DNA from: Deltaproteobacteria bacterium
GTDB taxonomy: Bacteria; Myxococcota_A; Polyangia; JAAYKL01
DNA: 64,000 nucleotides
Direction of reading: 5' to 3'
Assembly: GCA_030595125.1 (NCBI GenBank)
Contig: JAUVDV010000015.1
Coordinates: 1-64,000, forward strand
Below are positions 37,438 to 47,203 of this stretch, piece by piece. The translations under genes were made by a program, and so were the position numbers. The notes under the pieces were generated by a model that ran no database searches, was not told the DNA's origin, and saw only the letters and a program-made list of their open reading frames with translations. Position 1 is the stretch's first letter. Each line of letters opens with the position of its first letter.

Positions 37438-38109
37438 TCAGAAGATGCAGCACTCACCCCAATCGCAGGCATACCAGGGGTCCACATATCCGCCCAGAAA
37501 CCCACACAGGACATCCGGCAGGCAGGTTGACGGGCAGGGATCGGGCTCGAGCCAGATTTCGCAACAAACGAAGGCACTACCACAATCGTAGCCCGGATAC
37601 GGGATGCCTCCCATCATGTTGCACTCGGCCGGGGTCAGGCAATCGAAGGGGCAGGGGTCGGGATCGGGATCGTCCCAGTCGCAGCATACACCCCAGTCGC
37701 AATAGAACCCGGGCAACGGCACACCCCCCAGCGCGTTGCATTCACCCCACCCGAGGCAATCGAAGGGACATTCGGGGTCGACATCGGTGTCCGAATCAGC
37801 ATCAACGTCCGAGTCGGAATCAACGTCCGAGTCGGAATCACCGTCCGAGTCGGAATCACCGTCCGAATCGGAATCACCGTCAGAGTCGGAATCACCGTCA
37901 GAATCCGAATCACCGTCAGAGTCCGAATCACCGTCAGAGTCCGAATCGCCGTCTGAATCCGAATCTCCGTCTGAATCGGAGTCACTATCGGCATCGGAGT
38001 CCAGGCTCCCGTCCGGGTTGCCCAGCACGATCGGCAACTCATCACCACAACCGAACACCAACACGGCGACGAACAACACCTCCCAGAACACCAACATCTT
38101 GCAAGTCAT
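37438..38109 (-). CDS. SD-stalk lipoprotein with three six-cysteine repeats
   Basis: 223 aa. The signal peptide ends VLVFGC. A stalk of about 80 residues is almost only Ser-Asp/Gly-Asp dipeptides. The C-terminal part holds three copies of a disulfide-type repeat, each C-x3-C-x5-C-x12-C-x(4-5)-CC ([33 protein letters not shown] begin them). I do not recognise the domain. The design suggests an outer-surface module held away from the membrane by a charged, possibly calcium-binding stalk. A strong promoter precedes it. Confidence 0.8.
37801..38000. repeat. 18-bp coding tandem repeat in the SD stalk
   Basis: On the minus strand the stalk is coded by an 18-bp unit (Gly-Asp-Ser-Asp-Ser-Asp), repeated about ten times with few synonymous differences. 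Such arrays can change length by slippage without shifting frame. Confidence 0.75.
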
Positions 38110-40185: not shown

Positions 40186-41580
40186 TTATTTCCAGTGTCC
40201 TTTAATGAACTCCTGCGTTTCGGGCAAGCCACCTTGCAAAATGAGGTAGCCGTTATGAGGCTCGCGATCGGTAATCTCGTGGTTGATTGTGTGGCGCATC
40301 ATCCGCATGACCTCGGCGTGGTCGTCAGTATGTCCCAACACCCAACCGAGCTTCATCAGGGCTGTTTCGGGCAGCATGTTGTCCAGCGGAACCACTCCCA
40401 TGTCCATCAGATCCCGACCGGTGTCGTATACGTACATCTGGGCGAACCCCCAGAGAGTCTGCACCGTCATCACAATATGGATGCCATTTTTAATGGCCCT
40501 TTCCAGCGCAGGATAAATGGGCTTGTTCACGTGGCCGAGGCCGGTCCCGGCGATCACGATACCCCGATATCCCTTCTCCACCAGGGCGTCCAACAGGTCG
40601 GGTTTCATGCCCGGGTAATAATACAACATGGTGATCCGGTCGTCGTAAACGGTATCGAGCTTGATCTTCCTGTCGGGATCTCGCGGCCGGAAGTCCTCGG
40701 TCAACAGCTCGAAAGAACCCCTGTCTACCCTGCACATCGGAGTATCTCCGATCGTGCGAAAAGCGCTCCTGTACGAGGAGTGCATCTTGCGAACACGCGT
40801 TGCCCTATGCAGCAGGGCGTATTGGTCCGAGGTGGGTCCGAACATGCAGACCTGCACCTCGGCGATCGGGCCGTAACCCGCAGTCTTTACCGCGTGCATG
40901 AGATTGAGCGCCGCATCGCTGGAGGGTCTGTCCGAACTTCGCTGGCTCCCGACCAGCACGATCGGCACGGGGCTGTCCTGGATCATGAACGTGAGGACCG
41001 CCCCGGTATGCCCCATGGTGTCCGTGCCGTGCCCGATGACAATTCCGTCGGCGCCGGCTTCGATCTCATCGCGAACGGCTCTCGCCAGGGTGGCGTACTC
41101 TTCCCAGCCCATGTTCTCCGAGAACACCCCGAATATCTTTTTGGTTGTCAGATTGGAGATATCCGCCAATTCCGGCACAGCACCATACAGTTCGCCGGGA
41201 GTGAATGCGGGGATGACCGCGCCGGTACGGTAATCCAGGCGGGAGGCGATGGTACCACCTGTTCCAAGTAGCGTTACATTGGCCAGATCAGGCGATCGCG
41301 GAAATTCCTGCTCGGGGATTTTATAAATTATCTTCTTGTAACTCAGTTCCTCGATGGTCGTGACCCTGTCGACATGGATTCCCACGTTGTAGCCCGTCTT
41401 CTGTTTGAGGACTATGTGCAGGTCATCGAAGTTCCCGCTCCGAGGAAGGATGACCCCCTCGAATACGCTCCCCGCCGTGTTGACCACTCTGACGTCACTC
41501 CATACGCGAACGCCCCACTTCTTCAAGCGGCCCTTCGCAATTCCCCGGTAACCTTTATAGGGATCTTCTTGATCGCTCAT
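40186..41580 (-). CDS. gatD: Glu-tRNA(Gln) amidotransferase subunit D (archaeal-type asparaginase subunit)
   Basis: 464 aa. An N-terminal beta-barrel domain (about 10-85; VRVWSDVRVVNTAGSVFEGVILPR) precedes a class I asparaginase fold with VTLLGTGGTIASRLDYRTGAV, GIVIGHGTDTMGHTGAVLTF and VLVGSQRSSDRPSSDAALN, holding the catalytic Thr, Thr-Asp and Lys-region residues (Arg-Ser-Ser-Asp here). The extra N-terminal domain and the partner gatE distinguish it from ordinary asparaginases. GatD frees ammonia from Gln/Asn for GatE, which amidates Glu-tRNA(Gln). It overlaps gatE by ATGA. This enzyme type is described as archaeal; its neighbours here are bacterial. Confidence 0.93.
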   Translation of the reverse strand: MSDQEDPYKGYRGIAKGRLKKWGVRVWSDVRVVNTAGSVFEGVILPRSGNFDDLHIVLKQKTGYNVGIHVDRVTTIEELSYKKIIYKIPEQEFPRSPDLANVTLLGTGGTIASRLDYRTGAVIPAFTPGELYGAVPELADISNLTTKKIFGVFSENMGWEEYATLARAVRDEIEAGADGIVIGHGTDTMGHTGAVLTFMIQDSPVPIVLVGSQRSSDRPSSDAALNLMHAVKTAGYGPIAEVQVCMFGPTSDQYALLHRATRVRKMHSSYRSAFRTIGDTPMCRVDRGSFELLTEDFRPRDPDRKIKLDTVYDDRITMLYYYPGMKPDLLDALVEKGYRGIVIAGTGLGHVNKPIYPALERAIKNGIHIVMTVQTLWGFAQMYVYDTGRDLMDMGVVPLDNMLPETALMKLGWVLGHTDDHAEVMRMMRHTINHEITDREPHNGYLILQGGLPETQEFIKGHWK

Positions 41581-43541
41581 GCCTGACCCTCCATGGCCGA
41601 GTGCAAGGCCGCTGATGCGTCCTTTGCCGGAATTCGCCCCCGCAGGTTCTTCATCACGATCCCCATCAGGAATCGGTGTCGCTGCCCGACGCTGTCGTTC
41701 GGGTGATCGGGTTGGCCTGTCTGGACGATCTCCAGGAGGTCCTCCCGCCAGCTCACCGCTTTCTCGTCCAGACCGAGCTTCTCCACGATGTCCCGCATGC
41801 TCCGATCGCCAACGGCGGCCATCGACGATACAATTCGTTTCCAGTCCTCAAAGAGAGTGCCGTTGCTCGAAACCAGGGAGAAGAGCTCGCACCAGAGATC
41901 ATCGGGTATGCCGTCCACCGCCACTCCGTCACGGCGAAGACCCTTGATCCGCTCTCCGAAGAAGAAGCAGGCTTGCCGGACATCCGCGCCGCCTTGATCG
42001 ACGACCAAGTCCACCAGTCTGGCTCCACCCCTGCGAATGAGGAAGTATATGGTGCTGAGCGGTACGCCGACGCCGGAATATCGCTTTTCTCGCAGCCAGG
42101 GCAACTCGGGGAGGGCAACGCGCAATCGCTCCATCCGCTCGCGAGTGATTTGCTGCGGGGGGCTGTCGGTATCGGGATACATGCGGTCCGGACCCGGCAG
42201 GATCCGTTCGAAATCGGTCGATCCGTCGTCAAACGGCTGCCTCGTCTCGTGAGGTATTCCCTCGACGGCGTCGGCATAGCGCAACCGGACCTCTTCGGCG
42301 GCGCACAACGTGTCCTGCTCGATTCCCCAGACCACCACCAGGGAGTCGTTCGGCCCGCATCCTGTTTTCTTTTTCAGACGCTGGATCTCCCCCTTGGCGC
42401 CCTGGTAATCGGGCCATTTCTCACTGTGCAGAAGGATCGGCTGCTGATCGAGGCAGGCTATTACCCTCACCCGGCCGATCAGCTCGTGTGCGAAGGTCAG
42501 ATCCGGTTGTCCGGGCCAGGACAAAGTGCCGGCCAGATCGGGAAGTCGGATCGCCCTGACGCAGAAGGAGCCGTTCAATAATTCGAACCCCTTTTTGCGT
42601 CCGTCCTGTTCAACGAAGCGCTCCCAGTTTTCCCGGTGAAGGAACTCCAGAACGGAATTGGAGAAGAAGTCGGTGACATCGGTGTGCTCGATCTTTATCG
42701 AGTCGGGTTTGGTGAATCCCCGCGAATGAAGCTCATCGCGAAGCTTGAGCAGGTTGACCTGCCGAACGGCTTCACCGTGAACGAGCGCCGGCGCCCATCC
42801 CGCCTGCGGCACGCCCTTGATCTCCACGCGTCGCCCTCCCCTGACCGATACGTTCACATCCTGGCGGCTGGCGCCCATGCCCACACGCACATGCCCGGTG
42901 CTCCTGCAGACTCGTCCAACGAGCAGAATCGCCTCCTCCACCTCGTCCGGCTCGTGCAGCTCCGGCCCGGTCACTGTTTCGATAAGGGGTATCCCCAGGC
43001 GATCGGTTCGCCATACGATCAAATGACCCTTGTCCGAGACTTCGCGACAGCTGTCCTCCTCGACGCTCACCTGGATAATGGTGAGTTCTCTACCGCGGAA
43101 CGGAAGCTTGCCGTTGACACCGACGATCGCCGTCCGTTGAAACCCCGTAGGAATAGAGCCGTCGAGATATTGTTTTCGGGCGATGTGCACTTCGTCAACG
43201 ATGTCACAACCCAGCATCAGGCACTGCTCGATAGCCACATCCAGGGCGTTTGCGTTCATCAGGAAAGGAGGAGTGTCGTCCATTTCATATGTGCAAACGT
43301 TTTTTTGATGGAGCAGGTACACGATATTCTTTTTTGTCTTGAACTCCATCAGGGCGGTGCCGTCGTACTCTCCCAACTCCGACAGGGTCGGGCGCATGTG
43401 CCGCAAGACGGTTCCGTCGTGATCTTTCGTGTATAATCCGGCCGGACAGCGGCAAAACAGCTTCTTCTCGGTGAGGAGTTGTTGGTGTACTTCAAGCCCG
43501 CAAATGAGCCCCACCTCTTTATAGTCGATCGATTGAGTCAC
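41577..43541 (-). CDS. gatE: Glu-tRNA(Gln) amidotransferase subunit E
   Basis: 654 aa, the length of GatE and well above GatB (about 480). N-terminal GLICGLEVHQQLLTEKKLFC, then GVPQAGWAPALVHGEAVRQ and the kinase-like glutamyl-phosphate core. An AspRS-like insertion (about 305-420; GTLSWPGQPDLTFAHELIGR) is present, which is the feature separating GatE from GatB. The C-terminal helical and YqeY-like tail binds tRNA. GTG 43541 is the start, with GGGAGGA upstream. It works with GatD on misacylated Glu-tRNA(Gln); a tRNA-Gln gene lies 120 bp away, divergent. Confidence 0.93.
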   Translation of the reverse strand: MTQSIDYKEVGLICGLEVHQQLLTEKKLFCRCPAGLYTKDHDGTVLRHMRPTLSELGEYDGTALMEFKTKKNIVYLLHQKNVCTYEMDDTPPFLMNANALDVAIEQCLMLGCDIVDEVHIARKQYLDGSIPTGFQRTAIVGVNGKLPFRGRELTIIQVSVEEDSCREVSDKGHLIVWRTDRLGIPLIETVTGPELHEPDEVEEAILLVGRVCRSTGHVRVGMGASRQDVNVSVRGGRRVEIKGVPQAGWAPALVHGEAVRQVNLLKLRDELHSRGFTKPDSIKIEHTDVTDFFSNSVLEFLHRENWERFVEQDGRKKGFELLNGSFCVRAIRLPDLAGTLSWPGQPDLTFAHELIGRVRVIACLDQQPILLHSEKWPDYQGAKGEIQRLKKKTGCGPNDSLVVVWGIEQDTLCAAEEVRLRYADAVEGIPHETRQPFDDGSTDFERILPGPDRMYPDTDSPPQQITRERMERLRVALPELPWLREKRYSGVGVPLSTIYFLIRRGGARLVDLVVDQGGADVRQACFFFGERIKGLRRDGVAVDGIPDDLWCELFSLVSSNGTLFEDWKRIVSSMAAVGDRSMRDIVEKLGLDEKAVSWREDLLEIVQTGQPDHPNDSVGQRHRFLMGIVMKNLRGRIPAKDASAALHSAMEGQA

Positions 43542-43620
43542 TGTGCTCTTCCTCCCGTAAAACGCCCGTTGATGGGTACATCAAACCTATTGAAAAGACA
43601 AGAGTTCCAGGGGACTTCGC

Positions 43621-43649
43621 TTGACAGATTTCATCGATTTGGCTAACTA
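43621..43649 (+). promoter_or_regulatory. Promoter for tRNA-Gln
   Basis: A perfect TTGACA (43621-43626) is followed after 17 bp by TAACTA (43644-43649), placing the transcription start a few bases before the tRNA 5-prime end at 43661. The -10 box is poor but the geometry is right. Confidence 0.5.
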
Positions 43650-43660
43650 GTTTTCGTCTT

Positions 43661-43731
43661 TCGGGGATCGTCTAATGGCAGGACGGCGGGTTCTGGCTCC
43701 GCTGATCTAGGTTCGAATCCTAGTCCCCGAG
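43661..43731 (+). tRNA. tRNA-Gln (anticodon CUG)
   Basis: A full cloverleaf can be drawn: acceptor stem TCGGGGA (43661-43667) with TCCCCGA (43724-43730), D arm GTC...GAC, anticodon stem GCGGG/TCCGC with loop TTCTGGC giving anticodon CTG, and T arm CTAGG-TTCGAAT-CCTAG. Discriminator base G73; CCA is not encoded. The first pair is U1-A72, the identity feature of bacterial tRNA-Gln (archaeal ones have A1-U72). It reads CAG codons and is the substrate type of the adjacent GatDE. Confidence 0.93.
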
Positions 43732-43776
43732 CAAATCTGGTACAAAGGGCCCGCCATGGCGCTTTGCGCGGACGCC

Positions 43777-44721
43777 CTACAAGCAGGCGTAAACTTCCCA
43801 CTCGTAAATCAAGGCGTTGCCCACGGACATGGAGTATGCATTGTAGATTCTTATCGAGGTGGTGGTTACCGGCGCGGTGAACTCGTAGTACAACCAGTCG
43901 CCGGTCTGGCCGGTGACCGTTCCGTCCGTCACCCATGTAGAGCCGCTCATCCACTGAACATCCCCACCTTCGAGCCCCCTGCCGCTCGTGTAGAGGCATC
44001 CCGAACCTGAGGACGGCTCCGTATCGACCCACATCCCCCAGAGGGTCTGTGCTGTCCCCCAGGTGTACTGAAAATAGGCCCCGCCGCCGTAGCTGGTACC
44101 GGTGTCAATCCAGCAAAACCCACACCCGCTTTGAAGGCCGCCGTCTTTGAGTCTTCCGGGGCCATACGTTACCTGATCTGTGCTGCCCGAGCTGATAGTT
44201 CCCGTGGCCGAGAGCGCCACATTGGCCCCCATGGAGCAACCCAGGCAGGCGCCCATGTCGCAGCCTCCGCTGCAGTAGATCTCAGTGTGATCGTAGTCAC
44301 ATACGGCCGTGATACAGGCCCCGTCGGCGTCGTAGTTCCACGCCGTGTCTCCCACGCAGGTATCCGCCGGCGGGGAGTCACACGCCACCGTTGTGCTGTC
44401 GTATACGCACTCGGTTCCGTCCCAGACTCCAGCGTCCTCGTATTCGAGCACTACCCCACCGTCAGCGCACTCGTTGTCGGGTGGCACGTTGCAATCGGGC
44501 GGTTCGGTGTCACTGTCGGTATCCGTGTCGGTATCGGTATCCGTATCGCCATCCGTGTCCGTATCGGTATCCGAGTCGCCATCACTATCTGCGTCAGAAT
44601 CAGGTTCGCCGATGTCGATAGCTGCATCAGCGCAGCCAATCACAGAGTTGAGCGTTGCCAGGAGGCACAGAAAAAAGTGTGCTTTTAGTGTGTGATCTAG
44701 GAGCAATTGTACACTCGCCAC
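43777..44721 (-). CDS. SD/TD-stalk lipoprotein with discoidin-like C-terminal domain (copy A)
   Basis: 314 aa. Hydrophobic signal ending SVIGC, an acidic stalk of Asp with Ser/Thr/Gly (about 38-75), two Cys-rich units (NVPPDNECADGG..., CDSPPADTC...) and a C-terminal domain of about 150 residues (GANVALSATGTISSGS to YEWEVYACL). The latter resembles a galactose-binding/F5-8 type C fold, which binds sugars or surfaces. No ATG fits; the frame opens at GTG 44721, overlapping the upstream gene. Its C-terminal 150 residues are nearly identical to those of the next gene, pointing to recent duplication. Confidence 0.75.
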   Translation of the reverse strand: MASVQLLLDHTLKAHFFLCLLATLNSVIGCADAAIDIGEPDSDADSDGDSDTDTDTDGDTDTDTDTDTDSDTEPPDCNVPPDNECADGGVVLEYEDAGVWDGTECVYDSTTVACDSPPADTCVGDTAWNYDADGACITAVCDYDHTEIYCSGGCDMGACLGCSMGANVALSATGTISSGSTDQVTYGPGRLKDGGLQSGCGFCWIDTGTSYGGGAYFQYTWGTAQTLWGMWVDTEPSSGSGCLYTSGRGLEGGDVQWMSGSTWVTDGTVTGQTGDWLYYEFTAPVTTTSIRIYNAYSMSVGNALIYEWEVYACL

Positions 44722-45839
44722 TCGAAAATCAAGCCGTTGGCCACGGACATGGAGTATGCATTATAGATTCTTATCGAGGTGGTGGTTACCGGCGAAGTGA
44801 ACTGGTAGTACGCCCAGTCGTTGGACATACCGGTGACCGTTCCGTCGGTCACCCATGTAGAGCCGCTCAACCACTGGACATCCCCGCCTTCGAGCCCCCT
44901 GCCGCTCGTGTAGGCACATCCCGAACCGGAGGACGGCTCCGTATCGACCCACATTCCCCAGAGGGTTTGTGGTGATGACCAAGTGTACCTGAAATAGGCC
45001 CCGCCGCCGTAGCTGGTACCGGTGTATATCCAGCAGAACCCGCACCCGCTTTGAAGGCCGCCGTCATTGAGTCTTCCGGGGCCGTACGTTACCTGATCTG
45101 TGCTACCCGAGCTGATGGTTCCCGTGGCTGAGAGCGCCACATTGGCCCCCATGGAGCAACCCTGGCAGACGCCCAGACTGCATGTGTACGGACACACGGT
45201 TTCGGTATGGCTGTACTCGCACTGGTCCACAACGCAGGTCCCCGACGCGCTGTAGTTCCAGGCGGTGGTGCTGACGCATGTGTCGGCCGGCGGGGAGTCG
45301 CACGCGGCCTCGGTGTGCGGATAACTGCATATTCCGCCGCTACAGGTACCCGGCGAATAGTATGACCACAGCACATTTGAAATGCACTCGTCGGGCGGCG
45401 GCGAGTTACAAACGATGCCGAGACACGGATCGTCTACACACACCCCGGTATCACACTCGTACGGGCAGATAATGGTGCTGAAATCGTACTCACACTCGGT
45501 GCCGTTCCATGTGCCCCCGTCATCGTACTGTGCCAGCTCGGTCGTGGAGATACACACATCATCGGGCGGCGAGTCACAAGCCGGCGGGTCGGTATCGGAA
45601 TCTGTGTCCGTATCACTATCTGTATCAGTATCGGCATCGCCATCAGTATCGGTATCACCATCTGTATCCGAGTCGCTGTCCGAGTCCGAATCGCTGTCCG
45701 AATCCGAGTCGCTATCCGAGTCCGAATCGCTATCGCTGGACGGGTCACCTTCGACGAGATCCACTTTGGCGCAGGAACAAAACAGAACCCCGCAACAAAG
45801 GAAGATCGCAAAAAAAACATGGGCAACGGTCTTGGTCAC
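44697..45839 (-). CDS. SD/TD-stalk lipoprotein with discoidin-like C-terminal domain (copy B)
   Basis: 380 aa. GTG 45839 is chosen because AGGAGG lies eight bases upstream. The signal ends LFCSC; the stalk (about 35-80) is Ser-Asp then Thr-Asp; three Cys-rich units with SPPxDxC spacing follow; the C-terminal discoidin-like domain matches copy A almost residue by residue (GPGRLxDGGLQSGCGFCW shared). Compared with copy A it has extra Cys-rich units, so the tandem copies differ mostly in stalk and spacer length. Surface adhesion or carbohydrate binding is a reasonable guess. Confidence 0.78.
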   Translation of the reverse strand: MTKTVAHVFFAIFLCCGVLFCSCAKVDLVEGDPSSDSDSDSDSDSDSDSDSDSDSDSDTDGDTDTDGDADTDTDSDTDTDSDTDPPACDSPPDDVCISTTELAQYDDGGTWNGTECEYDFSTIICPYECDTGVCVDDPCLGIVCNSPPPDECISNVLWSYYSPGTCSGGICSYPHTEAACDSPPADTCVSTTAWNYSASGTCVVDQCEYSHTETVCPYTCSLGVCQGCSMGANVALSATGTISSGSTDQVTYGPGRLNDGGLQSGCGFCWIYTGTSYGGGAYFRYTWSSPQTLWGMWVDTEPSSGSGCAYTSGRGLEGGDVQWLSGSTWVTDGTVTGMSNDWAYYQFTSPVTTTSIRIYNAYSMSVANGLIFEWRVYNCS

Positions 45840-45869
45840 GAAAAACACCTCCTCTTGCAAGGGGTCTGT

Positions 45870-46880
45870 CTACTCGATGGGCGTGGTGCCGCCCTCGACG
45901 GGATCTCCGGACCACTGGAAATTGTCGATGAACACGATTGAGTCGAAGACACAGTCGCCTTCATCATGGATCGAGAAAGTGAGATTGAATGAGGCGCCCC
46001 CCTCGATGGGCCAGCTCGTGCGCAGCCAGCCGGTCGAACCGGAAACGGAGGGCATGGCGGGCTCCCAACCGGAGCCGGATTCGTCACACGTGTGCGCCGG
46101 ATTCTCGAAAAAGTTGACGTCCACCTCCACCTCCATGCCGGAGTCGTCGAAGGAGATATTGGTTGGCGATCCGCCGTTGAGCTGGTCGTACTCCATTATA
46201 GCGTAGAACGCATCGTTGAATCCCTCGCCGATCCACTCGTCGTACTCCGCCGACGCGAAAAGAAAATCGAAGGTGAACCCCTCCGCGTTTGCGGGGGCGG
46301 TCAACGAATACTGAAGCTGGACCACATCGCACGATATGAACGTCTCCGACGTCGTGGCCGTGTATCCCTGGAACGGGGGCAGAGGATCGTTGCCGATTAT
46401 CGCGCCGCCCGCGGTCGAACCTCCTATGTCATCCGGACCCGCGTTGTTGGGATCGGCCTGACCCACGGGGCCGGTGCTCAGAGCGATCATTTCGCAACCG
46501 TGGGTGTGAATCAGACAGTCGTTGCTACCCTGGGATTCGAGCACGGCAAAGGCCAGGTCCAGAGCGGTAGCGCCGCTGGTCGAGAACTTGTTTACTGATA
46601 TCAGGTGCTCGTTGGGGCAGAGGTTCATCGCCGAAGCGAGATTGTCCGCAGTGTTGCCTGTGATCTCCGGGCAGTCACAGTAATTGTTCTCCGTATCCAC
46701 ATCGCCGTCAGTATCCGAGTCGGTATCGGAATCAGAATCGGAATCGGAATCAGAATCGGAATCGGAGTCCGAGTCGCCACCCATCGCGTAATCGGGGTCT
46801 TCCTCGGCACACGACAAGACCAGAAACCCGGTCAGCAAAACGAGCAAAATGGCATTCGAAGCAGTAAATATACGAGTCAT
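45870..46880 (-). CDS. SD-stalk lipoprotein with choice-of-anchor L domain
   Basis: 336 aa from ATG 46880 (AAAGGAGG upstream). The lipobox is VLSC, the stalk is Ser-Asp (about 32-55), and the rest is a choice-of-anchor L domain: NTADNLASAMNL, CDVVQLQYSLTAPANAEGF, FDFLFASAEYDEWIGEGFND and VFIDNFQWSG are its landmarks. This domain is found on bacterial surface proteins with various anchors; its ligand is unknown. Here the anchor is lipid rather than a C-terminal sorting signal. Confidence 0.82.
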   Translation of the reverse strand: MTRIFTASNAILLVLLTGFLVLSCAEEDPDYAMGGDSDSDSDSDSDSDSDSDTDSDTDGDVDTENNYCDCPEITGNTADNLASAMNLCPNEHLISVNKFSTSGATALDLAFAVLESQGSNDCLIHTHGCEMIALSTGPVGQADPNNAGPDDIGGSTAGGAIIGNDPLPPFQGYTATTSETFISCDVVQLQYSLTAPANAEGFTFDFLFASAEYDEWIGEGFNDAFYAIMEYDQLNGGSPTNISFDDSGMEVEVDVNFFENPAHTCDESGSGWEPAMPSVSGSTGWLRTSWPIEGGASFNLTFSIHDEGDCVFDSIVFIDNFQWSGDPVEGGTTPIE

Positions 46881-47203
46881 GGAGAAGCCTCCTTTGGCAA
46901 TAAGCTTACTTTTACACAATTTAATTGTACTACAAGTTTCGGTCTTTTTTCCATTCTTCATTTTGACAACATCTGAAAAGAAAAATTTCATTACTTCATG
47001 CCGCGCCCTGAATAGGGCGCGGTCAGGATGACCTTTGTTCCTGTAAACCCATGGAAACCACCGGTCAAGCCCACAGGGTTTTCCGTTTCAGGCAGCCCTC
47101 CGGGCTTGCGCGAAGCGCATTCTGACCGCGCCCTCATAAGGGCGCGGTATGCGATACTTTAAACCCATTGACATAAATATCGCCCGCGGCGACCATTGTT
47201 TTC
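46881..47203. other. Gene-free divergent region holding the short palindromic element
   Basis: Between the divergent genes at 46880 and 47204. 46881-47000 is AT-rich and should contain the leftward promoter; 47001-47147 is the REPIN-like element; 47148-47203 is short and without a clear promoter. Confidence 0.6.
47001..47147. mobile_element. Transposase-less copy of the palindromic element (REPIN/MITE-like)
   Basis: 147 bp bounded by 47001-47034 and the inverted end near 47114-47147. Both ends carry the CCGCGCCC/GGGCGCGG hairpin of the HUH element at 19896-20514, and inner pieces (ACCGGTCAAGCCC, AGCCCTCCGGGCT) also match, but the gene is missing. It fits a non-autonomous derivative moved by that transposase. 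Confidence 0.8.

Follow-up and report, generated by a model that had tools for sequence, protein, structure and literature searches.

A predicted bacterial-type GatDE amidotransferase, spread over about a dozen phyla, encoded alongside GlnRS in a Myxococcota_A genome

Known Gln-tRNA systems and the gatE-gatD locus

In the amidotransferase GatDE, GatD frees ammonia from an amide donor, and GatE phosphorylates the glutamyl ester and then amidates it. The gene pair described here, gatE-gatD, lies in a 64,000-nucleotide stretch of a Deltaproteobacteria bacterium (GenBank assembly GCA_030595125.1, contig JAUVDV010000015.1, positions 1 to 64,000; henceforth the window) whose genome also encodes GlnRS. 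GatDE has been stated to occur in archaea only (PMC9499178, 2022; PMC8007984, 2021), GlnRS to be absent from every archaeon (PMC9499178), and the two routes to Gln-tRNA not to be known together in any bacterium (PMC4206432, 2014); GatDE was not among the enzymes considered when bacterial GluRS, GlnRS and GatCAB were surveyed on a large scale in 2014 (PMC3927822). At the gene level, GlnRS and GatDE coexist widely, which contradicts both the archaea-only statement and the statement that no bacterium has both routes. Bacteria carrying the two appear to have two ways to glutamine-loaded tRNA. Annotation that considers only GlnRS and GatCAB when assigning a route to Gln-tRNA is affected, and tRNA-Gln identity under two competing systems becomes directly testable. 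No report of GatDE in myxobacteria, Acidobacteria or Ignavibacteria was found in the literature outside subscription papers, and the window's GatDE belongs to an old, widespread bacterial branch that is apparently unreported. Since NCBI's models would name the proteins GatD and GatE, database entries probably already carry these names, though undiscussed.

Archaeal GatDE (Methanothermobacter, 2d6f; Pyrococcus abyssi, 1zq1) shares with the window's proteins the two-subunit organization, a GatD with a GatD_N domain and an asparaginase-like part, and a GatE in which a catalytic domain is joined by an insertion and a tail, at 31-36% identity over the fold match. The bacterial type differs in about 14 fixed switches in the rows compared (e.g. 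bacterial DGSI-P for DGSN, and CTYEMDD for C-L-V-E-x-D-E), in its coexistence with GlnRS, and in a C-terminal extension of GatD (EPHNGYLILQGGLPE...) that reaches past the aligned part of the archaeal GatD chains. Bacterial GatCAB catalyses the same class of reaction, and its GatB has GatE's catalytic domain and Yqey tail; its GatA, however, is an amidase, which is absent here, and GatB models reached only 59-129 bits on the window's GatE, far under their cut-offs. In Acidithiobacillus ferrooxidans, GluRS1 glutamylates tRNA-Gln(CUG) and not tRNA-Gln(UUG) (PMC3927822), an augmented D stem and an absent base 47 being the likely elements (PMC9976931). In the papers, that organism is one of the GatCAB-using bacteria with two GluRS, whereas one GluRS, GlnRS and GatDE are present here. 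Bdellovibrio, with GlnRS, AsnRS and GatCAB, likewise retains an amidotransferase beside the direct synthetases (PMC4206432), but its redundancy is explained by Asn synthesis and the amidotransferase here is GatDE.

The identity of the window's enzyme as GatDE is firm by sequence comparison. GatD scored 488.5 bits against NF003217 (cut-off 310), 483.7 bits against TIGR02153 (cut-off 324) and 42.3 against the Pfam GatD_N domain (PF18195; cut-off 25.7). A broad "type I asparaginase" subfamily model was also passed, at a lower score than the GatD models, and GatD fell under the cut-off of the asparaginase II models. GatE scored 474.1 bits against NF003107 (cut-off 456) and 393.9 bits against TIGR00134 (cut-off 319.6). 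The closest solved structures to both subunits are archaeal 1zq1 and 2d6f. An AlphaFold model of GatE (mean predicted local distance difference test score 82.5) gave 1zq1_C and 2d6f as the best Foldseek matches (E ~1e-47 to 1e-41, TMt 0.81), with GatB next and AspRS weak. By alignment, GatE has its catalytic-domain motifs and the insertion in common with the archaeal chains. Among 16 GatE relatives, the Pfam GAD domain (GatB/AspRS) was detected in 2 and the GatB_Yqey tail in 8; the window's own GatE matched GatB_Yqey at E 0.0014, under the Pfam cut-off.

The earlier sequence-only reading, made from the letters of the window, had called a true GatDE rather than an asparaginase and a GatB, and this is borne out by the equivalog cut-offs passed and by archaeal GatE as the best fold match. 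The AspRS-like insertion that it placed in the 654-aa GatE is consistent with the weak AspRS matches of the model, and ARAGORN recovered the divergent tRNA-Gln(CUG) gene that it had noted nearby. The gene order is gatE first, then gatD, with the 4-base overlap (ATGA) that had been described; positions are given in Table 1. Between two species of the genus, the ratio of nonsynonymous to synonymous change (dN/dS) was 0.13 for gatE and 0.08 for gatD, and both genes are under purifying selection. We infer that the product of the locus is a functional Glu-tRNA(Gln) amidotransferase and that it represents a separate, bacterial-type subfamily of GatDE.

Table 1 Features of the gatE-gatD locus in the window.
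Feature	Position	Strand	Details
gatD, asparaginase-like amide-donor subunit with GatD_N domain	40186-41580	-	464 aa; open reading frame (ORF) calling
gatE, bacterial-type Glu-tRNA(Gln) amidotransferase subunit E (predicted)	41577-43541	-	654 aa, GTG start; ORF calling
Ribosome-binding site GGGAGGA	43550-43556	-	8 bases upstream of gatE GTG; read directly; present in sister species too
Sigma-70-like promoter of tRNA-Gln(CTG)	43621-43649	+	TTGACA 43621-43626, 17-base spacer, TAACTA 43644-43649; read directly
tRNA-Gln(CTG), divergent from gatE	43661-43732	+	ARAGORN

Phylogeny and distribution of bacterial GatE

GatE trees were built in a "quick" mode that gives no bootstraps, with branch support from the Shimodaira-Hasegawa-like approximate likelihood ratio test (SH-aLRT); archaeal references comprised Pyrococcus, Methanothermobacter and 22 Thermoplasmatota sequences. 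All bacterial GatE sampled, including that of the window, formed a clade separate from archaeal GatE, on one side of a long stem (SH-aLRT 100, 1.07 changes per site). The window's genus fell inside a 20-row subclade dominated by Acidobacteriota (SH-aLRT 99), its nearest named relatives being Thermoanaerobaculales at 68% identity. GatE of a genome from the window's own family (G155) was 45% identical and was placed elsewhere in the tree, and GatE of the phylum required a minimum of five changes on branches with good support. We read this pattern as recurrent exchange among bacteria, by transfer with or without loss, and not as a recent archaeal gift. The transfer that the sequence-only reading had proposed thus survives as horizontal movement and is unsupported as regards a direct archaeal donor, since bacterial GatE is one deep clade with the window's copy among Acidobacteriota.

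Two Thermoplasmatota genomes (L138 and L225) carried bacterial-type GatE, which branched as the sister group of all bacterial GatE (support 81). One Thermoplasmatota metagenome-assembled genome (MAG), G414, has a GlnRS gene on a contig with otherwise archaeal-looking genes, such as one for an RNA 3'-phosphate cyclase-like protein; its bacterial-type gatD/gatE adjoins genes for an archaeal AsnRS-like asparagine synthetase and for glutamine synthetase. Bacterial-type GatDE is present in another genome, G442, too. Genes at these loci (L226:8326-10011; L227:137-3662; L228:5866-9335) were named by eye, and mis-binning is possible.

Relatives of the window's GatE are encoded in at least 583 stretches from the 84,980 GTDB species scanned. 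The best 80 of these came from Acidobacteriota, Myxococcota, Planctomycetota, Ignavibacteria and other Bacteroidota, Calditrichota, Zixibacteria, Aminicenantes, Latescibacterota, Gemmatimonadota, Eisenbacteria, Neomarinimicrobiota, KSB1 and others, plus one archaeal MAG; bacterial GatE is spread over about a dozen phyla. In 50 genomes taken from the best 80, GlnRS was above cut-off in 40 and GatB in 21; 25 combined GlnRS and GatDE without GatB, and 15 had GatDE and GlnRS together with GatCAB. AsnRS was found in 46 of the 48 genomes tested. GlnRS and GatDE without GatB also occurred in three chromosome-titled or one-contig entries, CP070758 (Gemmatimonadota), CP054675 (Ignavibacteria) and CP070707, so the combination is more than a binning artefact. 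Three MAGs had GatDE without detected GlnRS or GatB (L107 in G392, L161 in G423 and L164 in G425) and are possible candidates for GatDE as the sole Gln-tRNA route; the genome of L161 has two GluRS genes.

Within the window's phylum, GatE was above cut-off in 29 of 379 genomes. GlnRS was above cut-off in 26 of the 29 and present in fragments in one further genome, while the two without it (G003 and G272) both have GatB. GatB was found in about 5 of the 29 GatE-positive genomes vs about 263 of 349 others (Fisher p 6e-10, relatedness ignored). In 28 of 30 phylum loci gatD lay directly 3' of gatE, mostly with the same 4-base overlap, the exceptions being a convergent gatD (G200) and a gatD on another contig (G155); the order is kept across phyla. 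Among the 55 loci compared there was no conserved third gene beside gatDE, and other shared neighbours were few and were generic, of low complexity, or ORFs antisense to gatD. The tRNA-gatE adjacency was present in both sampled genomes of the window's genus and is genus-specific (0/28 other phylum loci; 0/33 close named loci). This limit rules out a mobile tRNA-gatDE module and disposes of the earlier suggestion that the tRNA gene travels with gatDE.

Two deviant forms of GatE were also seen. In family f28 of the phylum (12 genomes; L013, L015, L024, L029, L030 and others) GatE is ~560-615 aa and has no C-terminal Yqey-like tail; gatD is still directly downstream, usually overlapping, and GlnRS is also present (one in fragments). 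At locus L033, a gatD above cut-off follows a GatE-like gene of 542 aa that has diverged strongly (209 bits); its genome (G110) also has GlnRS and a separate GatB-like match.

Charging inventory and tRNA-Gln genes of the genome

The assembly containing the window comprises 5.39 Mb in 203 contigs and is 95% complete. Its one GlnRS (578 aa; contig C113) scored 767 bits against TIGR00440 and its AsnRS 612 bits, and contig C198 encodes its one GluRS, of the bacterial kind (461 aa). No GatA-family amidase (PF01425) and no GatB was found in this 95% complete genome, PF02637 matching GatE alone, below cut-off; GatDE is therefore the sole recognised tRNA amidotransferase, alongside both direct synthetases. 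The sequence-only reading had looked to absence of both gatCAB and glnS as the sign of a sole route; gatCAB is indeed absent, but the GlnRS gene is present and GatDE is not the sole route. Its idea that the module replaces part of the glutamine decoding system may fairly be kept in a narrower form, in which GatDE would serve the CUG isoacceptor while GlnRS is retained. In the gene at L003:1495-2880 and in the GluRS of G246 and G155, the loop bearing the KLSKR signature is ~5 residues shorter, reading ILGLSKRLRSAG instead of ILGPDGKRLSKRHGA; the short loop was seen in 3/3 genomes of the window's family and is unusual for a sole GluRS.

The tRNA-Gln set consists of one TTG gene and two identical CTG copies. 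The first CTG copy is separated from the gatE start codon by 119 bp, of which 110 bases are the same in the sister species, where its promoter is also kept. The second copy lies on contig C140 in a tRNA-Gln/tRNA-Glu pair, and both copies are preceded by a promoter-like TTGACA-17 bases-TAA. The two isoacceptors differ in their identity elements. tRNA-Gln(CUG) has U1-A72, C2-G71, G3-C70, G73, U11-A24, U13-G22 and C38 and lacks base 47; U11-A24, U13-G22 and the missing base 47 are common to it and both tRNA-Glu genes. tRNA-Gln(UUG) has G11-C24, base 47, G2-C71, G3-C70, G73 and U38. The core of tRNA-Gln(CUG) is thus tRNA-Glu-like, and tRNA-Gln(UUG) retains the GlnRS set. The C2-G71 pair breaks a rule reported as absolute for genomes with GlnRS; a published survey (PMC3927822) served as the control for this contrast. 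CAG outnumbered CAA 70 to 20 among the Gln codons of eight genes, so tRNA-Gln(CUG) matters.

A possible division of labour and its alternatives

The reading that we favour, and to which we give an even chance, is that GluRS and GatDE serve or correct the CUG isoacceptor while GlnRS loads the UUG isoacceptor, the cassette having come from another, Acidobacteriota-like bacterial lineage. The two-gene gatE-gatD cassette would have been gained from that lineage and retained beside GlnRS, which would charge tRNA-Gln(UUG) directly. The single GluRS would glutamylate tRNA-Gln(CUG), with its tRNA-Glu-like core, to Glu-tRNA-Gln(CUG). GatD would liberate ammonia from glutamine or asparagine, and GatE would activate the esterified glutamate and amidate it to Gln-tRNA-Gln(CUG), so that CAG would still be read as glutamine. 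The extra tRNA-Gln(CUG) gene beside gatE may increase the supply of substrate near its enzyme. Enzyme family, gene inventory, bacterial clade and tRNA features are shown here, whereas charging of the CUG isoacceptor by GluRS and the sharing out of the two isoacceptors are inferred. In favour of this reading are the identity and fold of the enzyme, the trees, the gene inventory, purifying selection, the predominance of CAG, the tRNA-Glu-like features of tRNA-Gln(CUG), and the isoacceptor preference of A. ferrooxidans GluRS1 with the elements named for it. So, too, is an Ignavibacteria chromosome with GlnRS and GatDE (83% read; 2.0/2.4 Mb), in which both tRNA-Gln violate the 2:71 and 3:70 rule and tRNA-Gln(UUG) has A73. 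More tentatively, and with a likelihood somewhat below even, the bacterial-type GatDE of about a dozen phyla may be a second, isoacceptor-specific Gln-tRNA route beside GlnRS, the two routes being split by tRNA, with the same pair possibly in Thermoplasmatota.

Several observations weigh against this division of labour. The window's GluRS retains an Arg aligned with the residue that marks tRNA-Gln discrimination, as does the GluRS of nearly all GatDE+GlnRS genomes checked; the column, which we take to be that of Arg358 of Thermus, was chosen by Thermus and B. subtilis data. With this Arg retained, a non-discriminating GluRS is unsupported as a simple reason for GatDE. The Ignavibacteria chromosome fits a simple UUG/CUG split poorly, since both of its isoacceptors look GluRS-like. 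The tRNA contrast itself covers one genus, most of that one chromosome and one published survey. Archaeal GatDE, moreover, reads an A1-U72 pair (PMC9499178), and the archaeal-type signature of A1-U72 with A73 is absent from both tRNA-Gln isoacceptors here, which have U1-A72 and G73.

The retained Arg, with which Glu-tRNA-Gln should be rare, suits a quality-control role in which GlnRS charges both isoacceptors and GatDE only repairs occasional GluRS-made Glu-tRNA-Gln as a pre-translational proofreader. A complete GlnRS and the wide co-occurrence of GatDE with GlnRS, in 15 of the 50 named genomes with GatCAB too, agree with such a role, but it would leave unexplained both the extra tRNA gene and a tRNA-Glu-like tRNA-Gln(CUG) that departs from the GlnRS identity set; we consider it unlikely, if a serious contender. 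Less probable again is that GatDE takes the place of GatCAB where GlnRS and AsnRS are already present, and that it perhaps makes asparagine by amidating Asp-tRNA-Asn. The rarity of GatB in GatE-positive genomes of the phylum points that way, as do the ~14 GatE columns that switch between archaeal and bacterial type and the case of Bdellovibrio, which has GlnRS and AsnRS and in which GatCAB is considered to serve tRNA-dependent Asn synthesis (PMC4206432). No AsnA or AsnB match to E. coli queries was found in the part of the Ignavibacteria chromosome that was read (83%); this negative concerns that chromosome only, asparagine synthetase not having been searched for in the window's genome. Archaeal GatDE is known, however, as a Glu-tRNA(Gln) enzyme, and AsnRS is nearly universal in the genomes tested; with AsnRS present in the window's genome as well, a need for GatDE in supplying Asn is unlikely.

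With GlnRS and AsnRS both present, Gln and Asn charging look complete without GatDE, and the patchy distribution of the pair would suit a horizontally gained, functionally redundant gene pair. The low dN/dS values (0.08-0.13), the gatE-gatD order conserved across phyla and the presence of GatDE in chromosome-level assemblies make redundancy very improbable. That GatDE came from an archaeon recently and now supplies most or all Gln-tRNA, for which family membership, the archaeal best PDB matches and the absence of GatCAB might speak, is scarcely credible: the trees put the window's GatE deep within the bacterial clade, and together with the complete GlnRS gene they refute a recently imported sole route for this genome.

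Elsewhere in the window, the ORFs 37438-38109, 43777-44721, 44697-45860 and 45870-46991 (-) probably encode secreted proteins with long Ser-Asp repeat linkers. The second and third of these share a near-identical C-terminal domain, which suggests local duplication.

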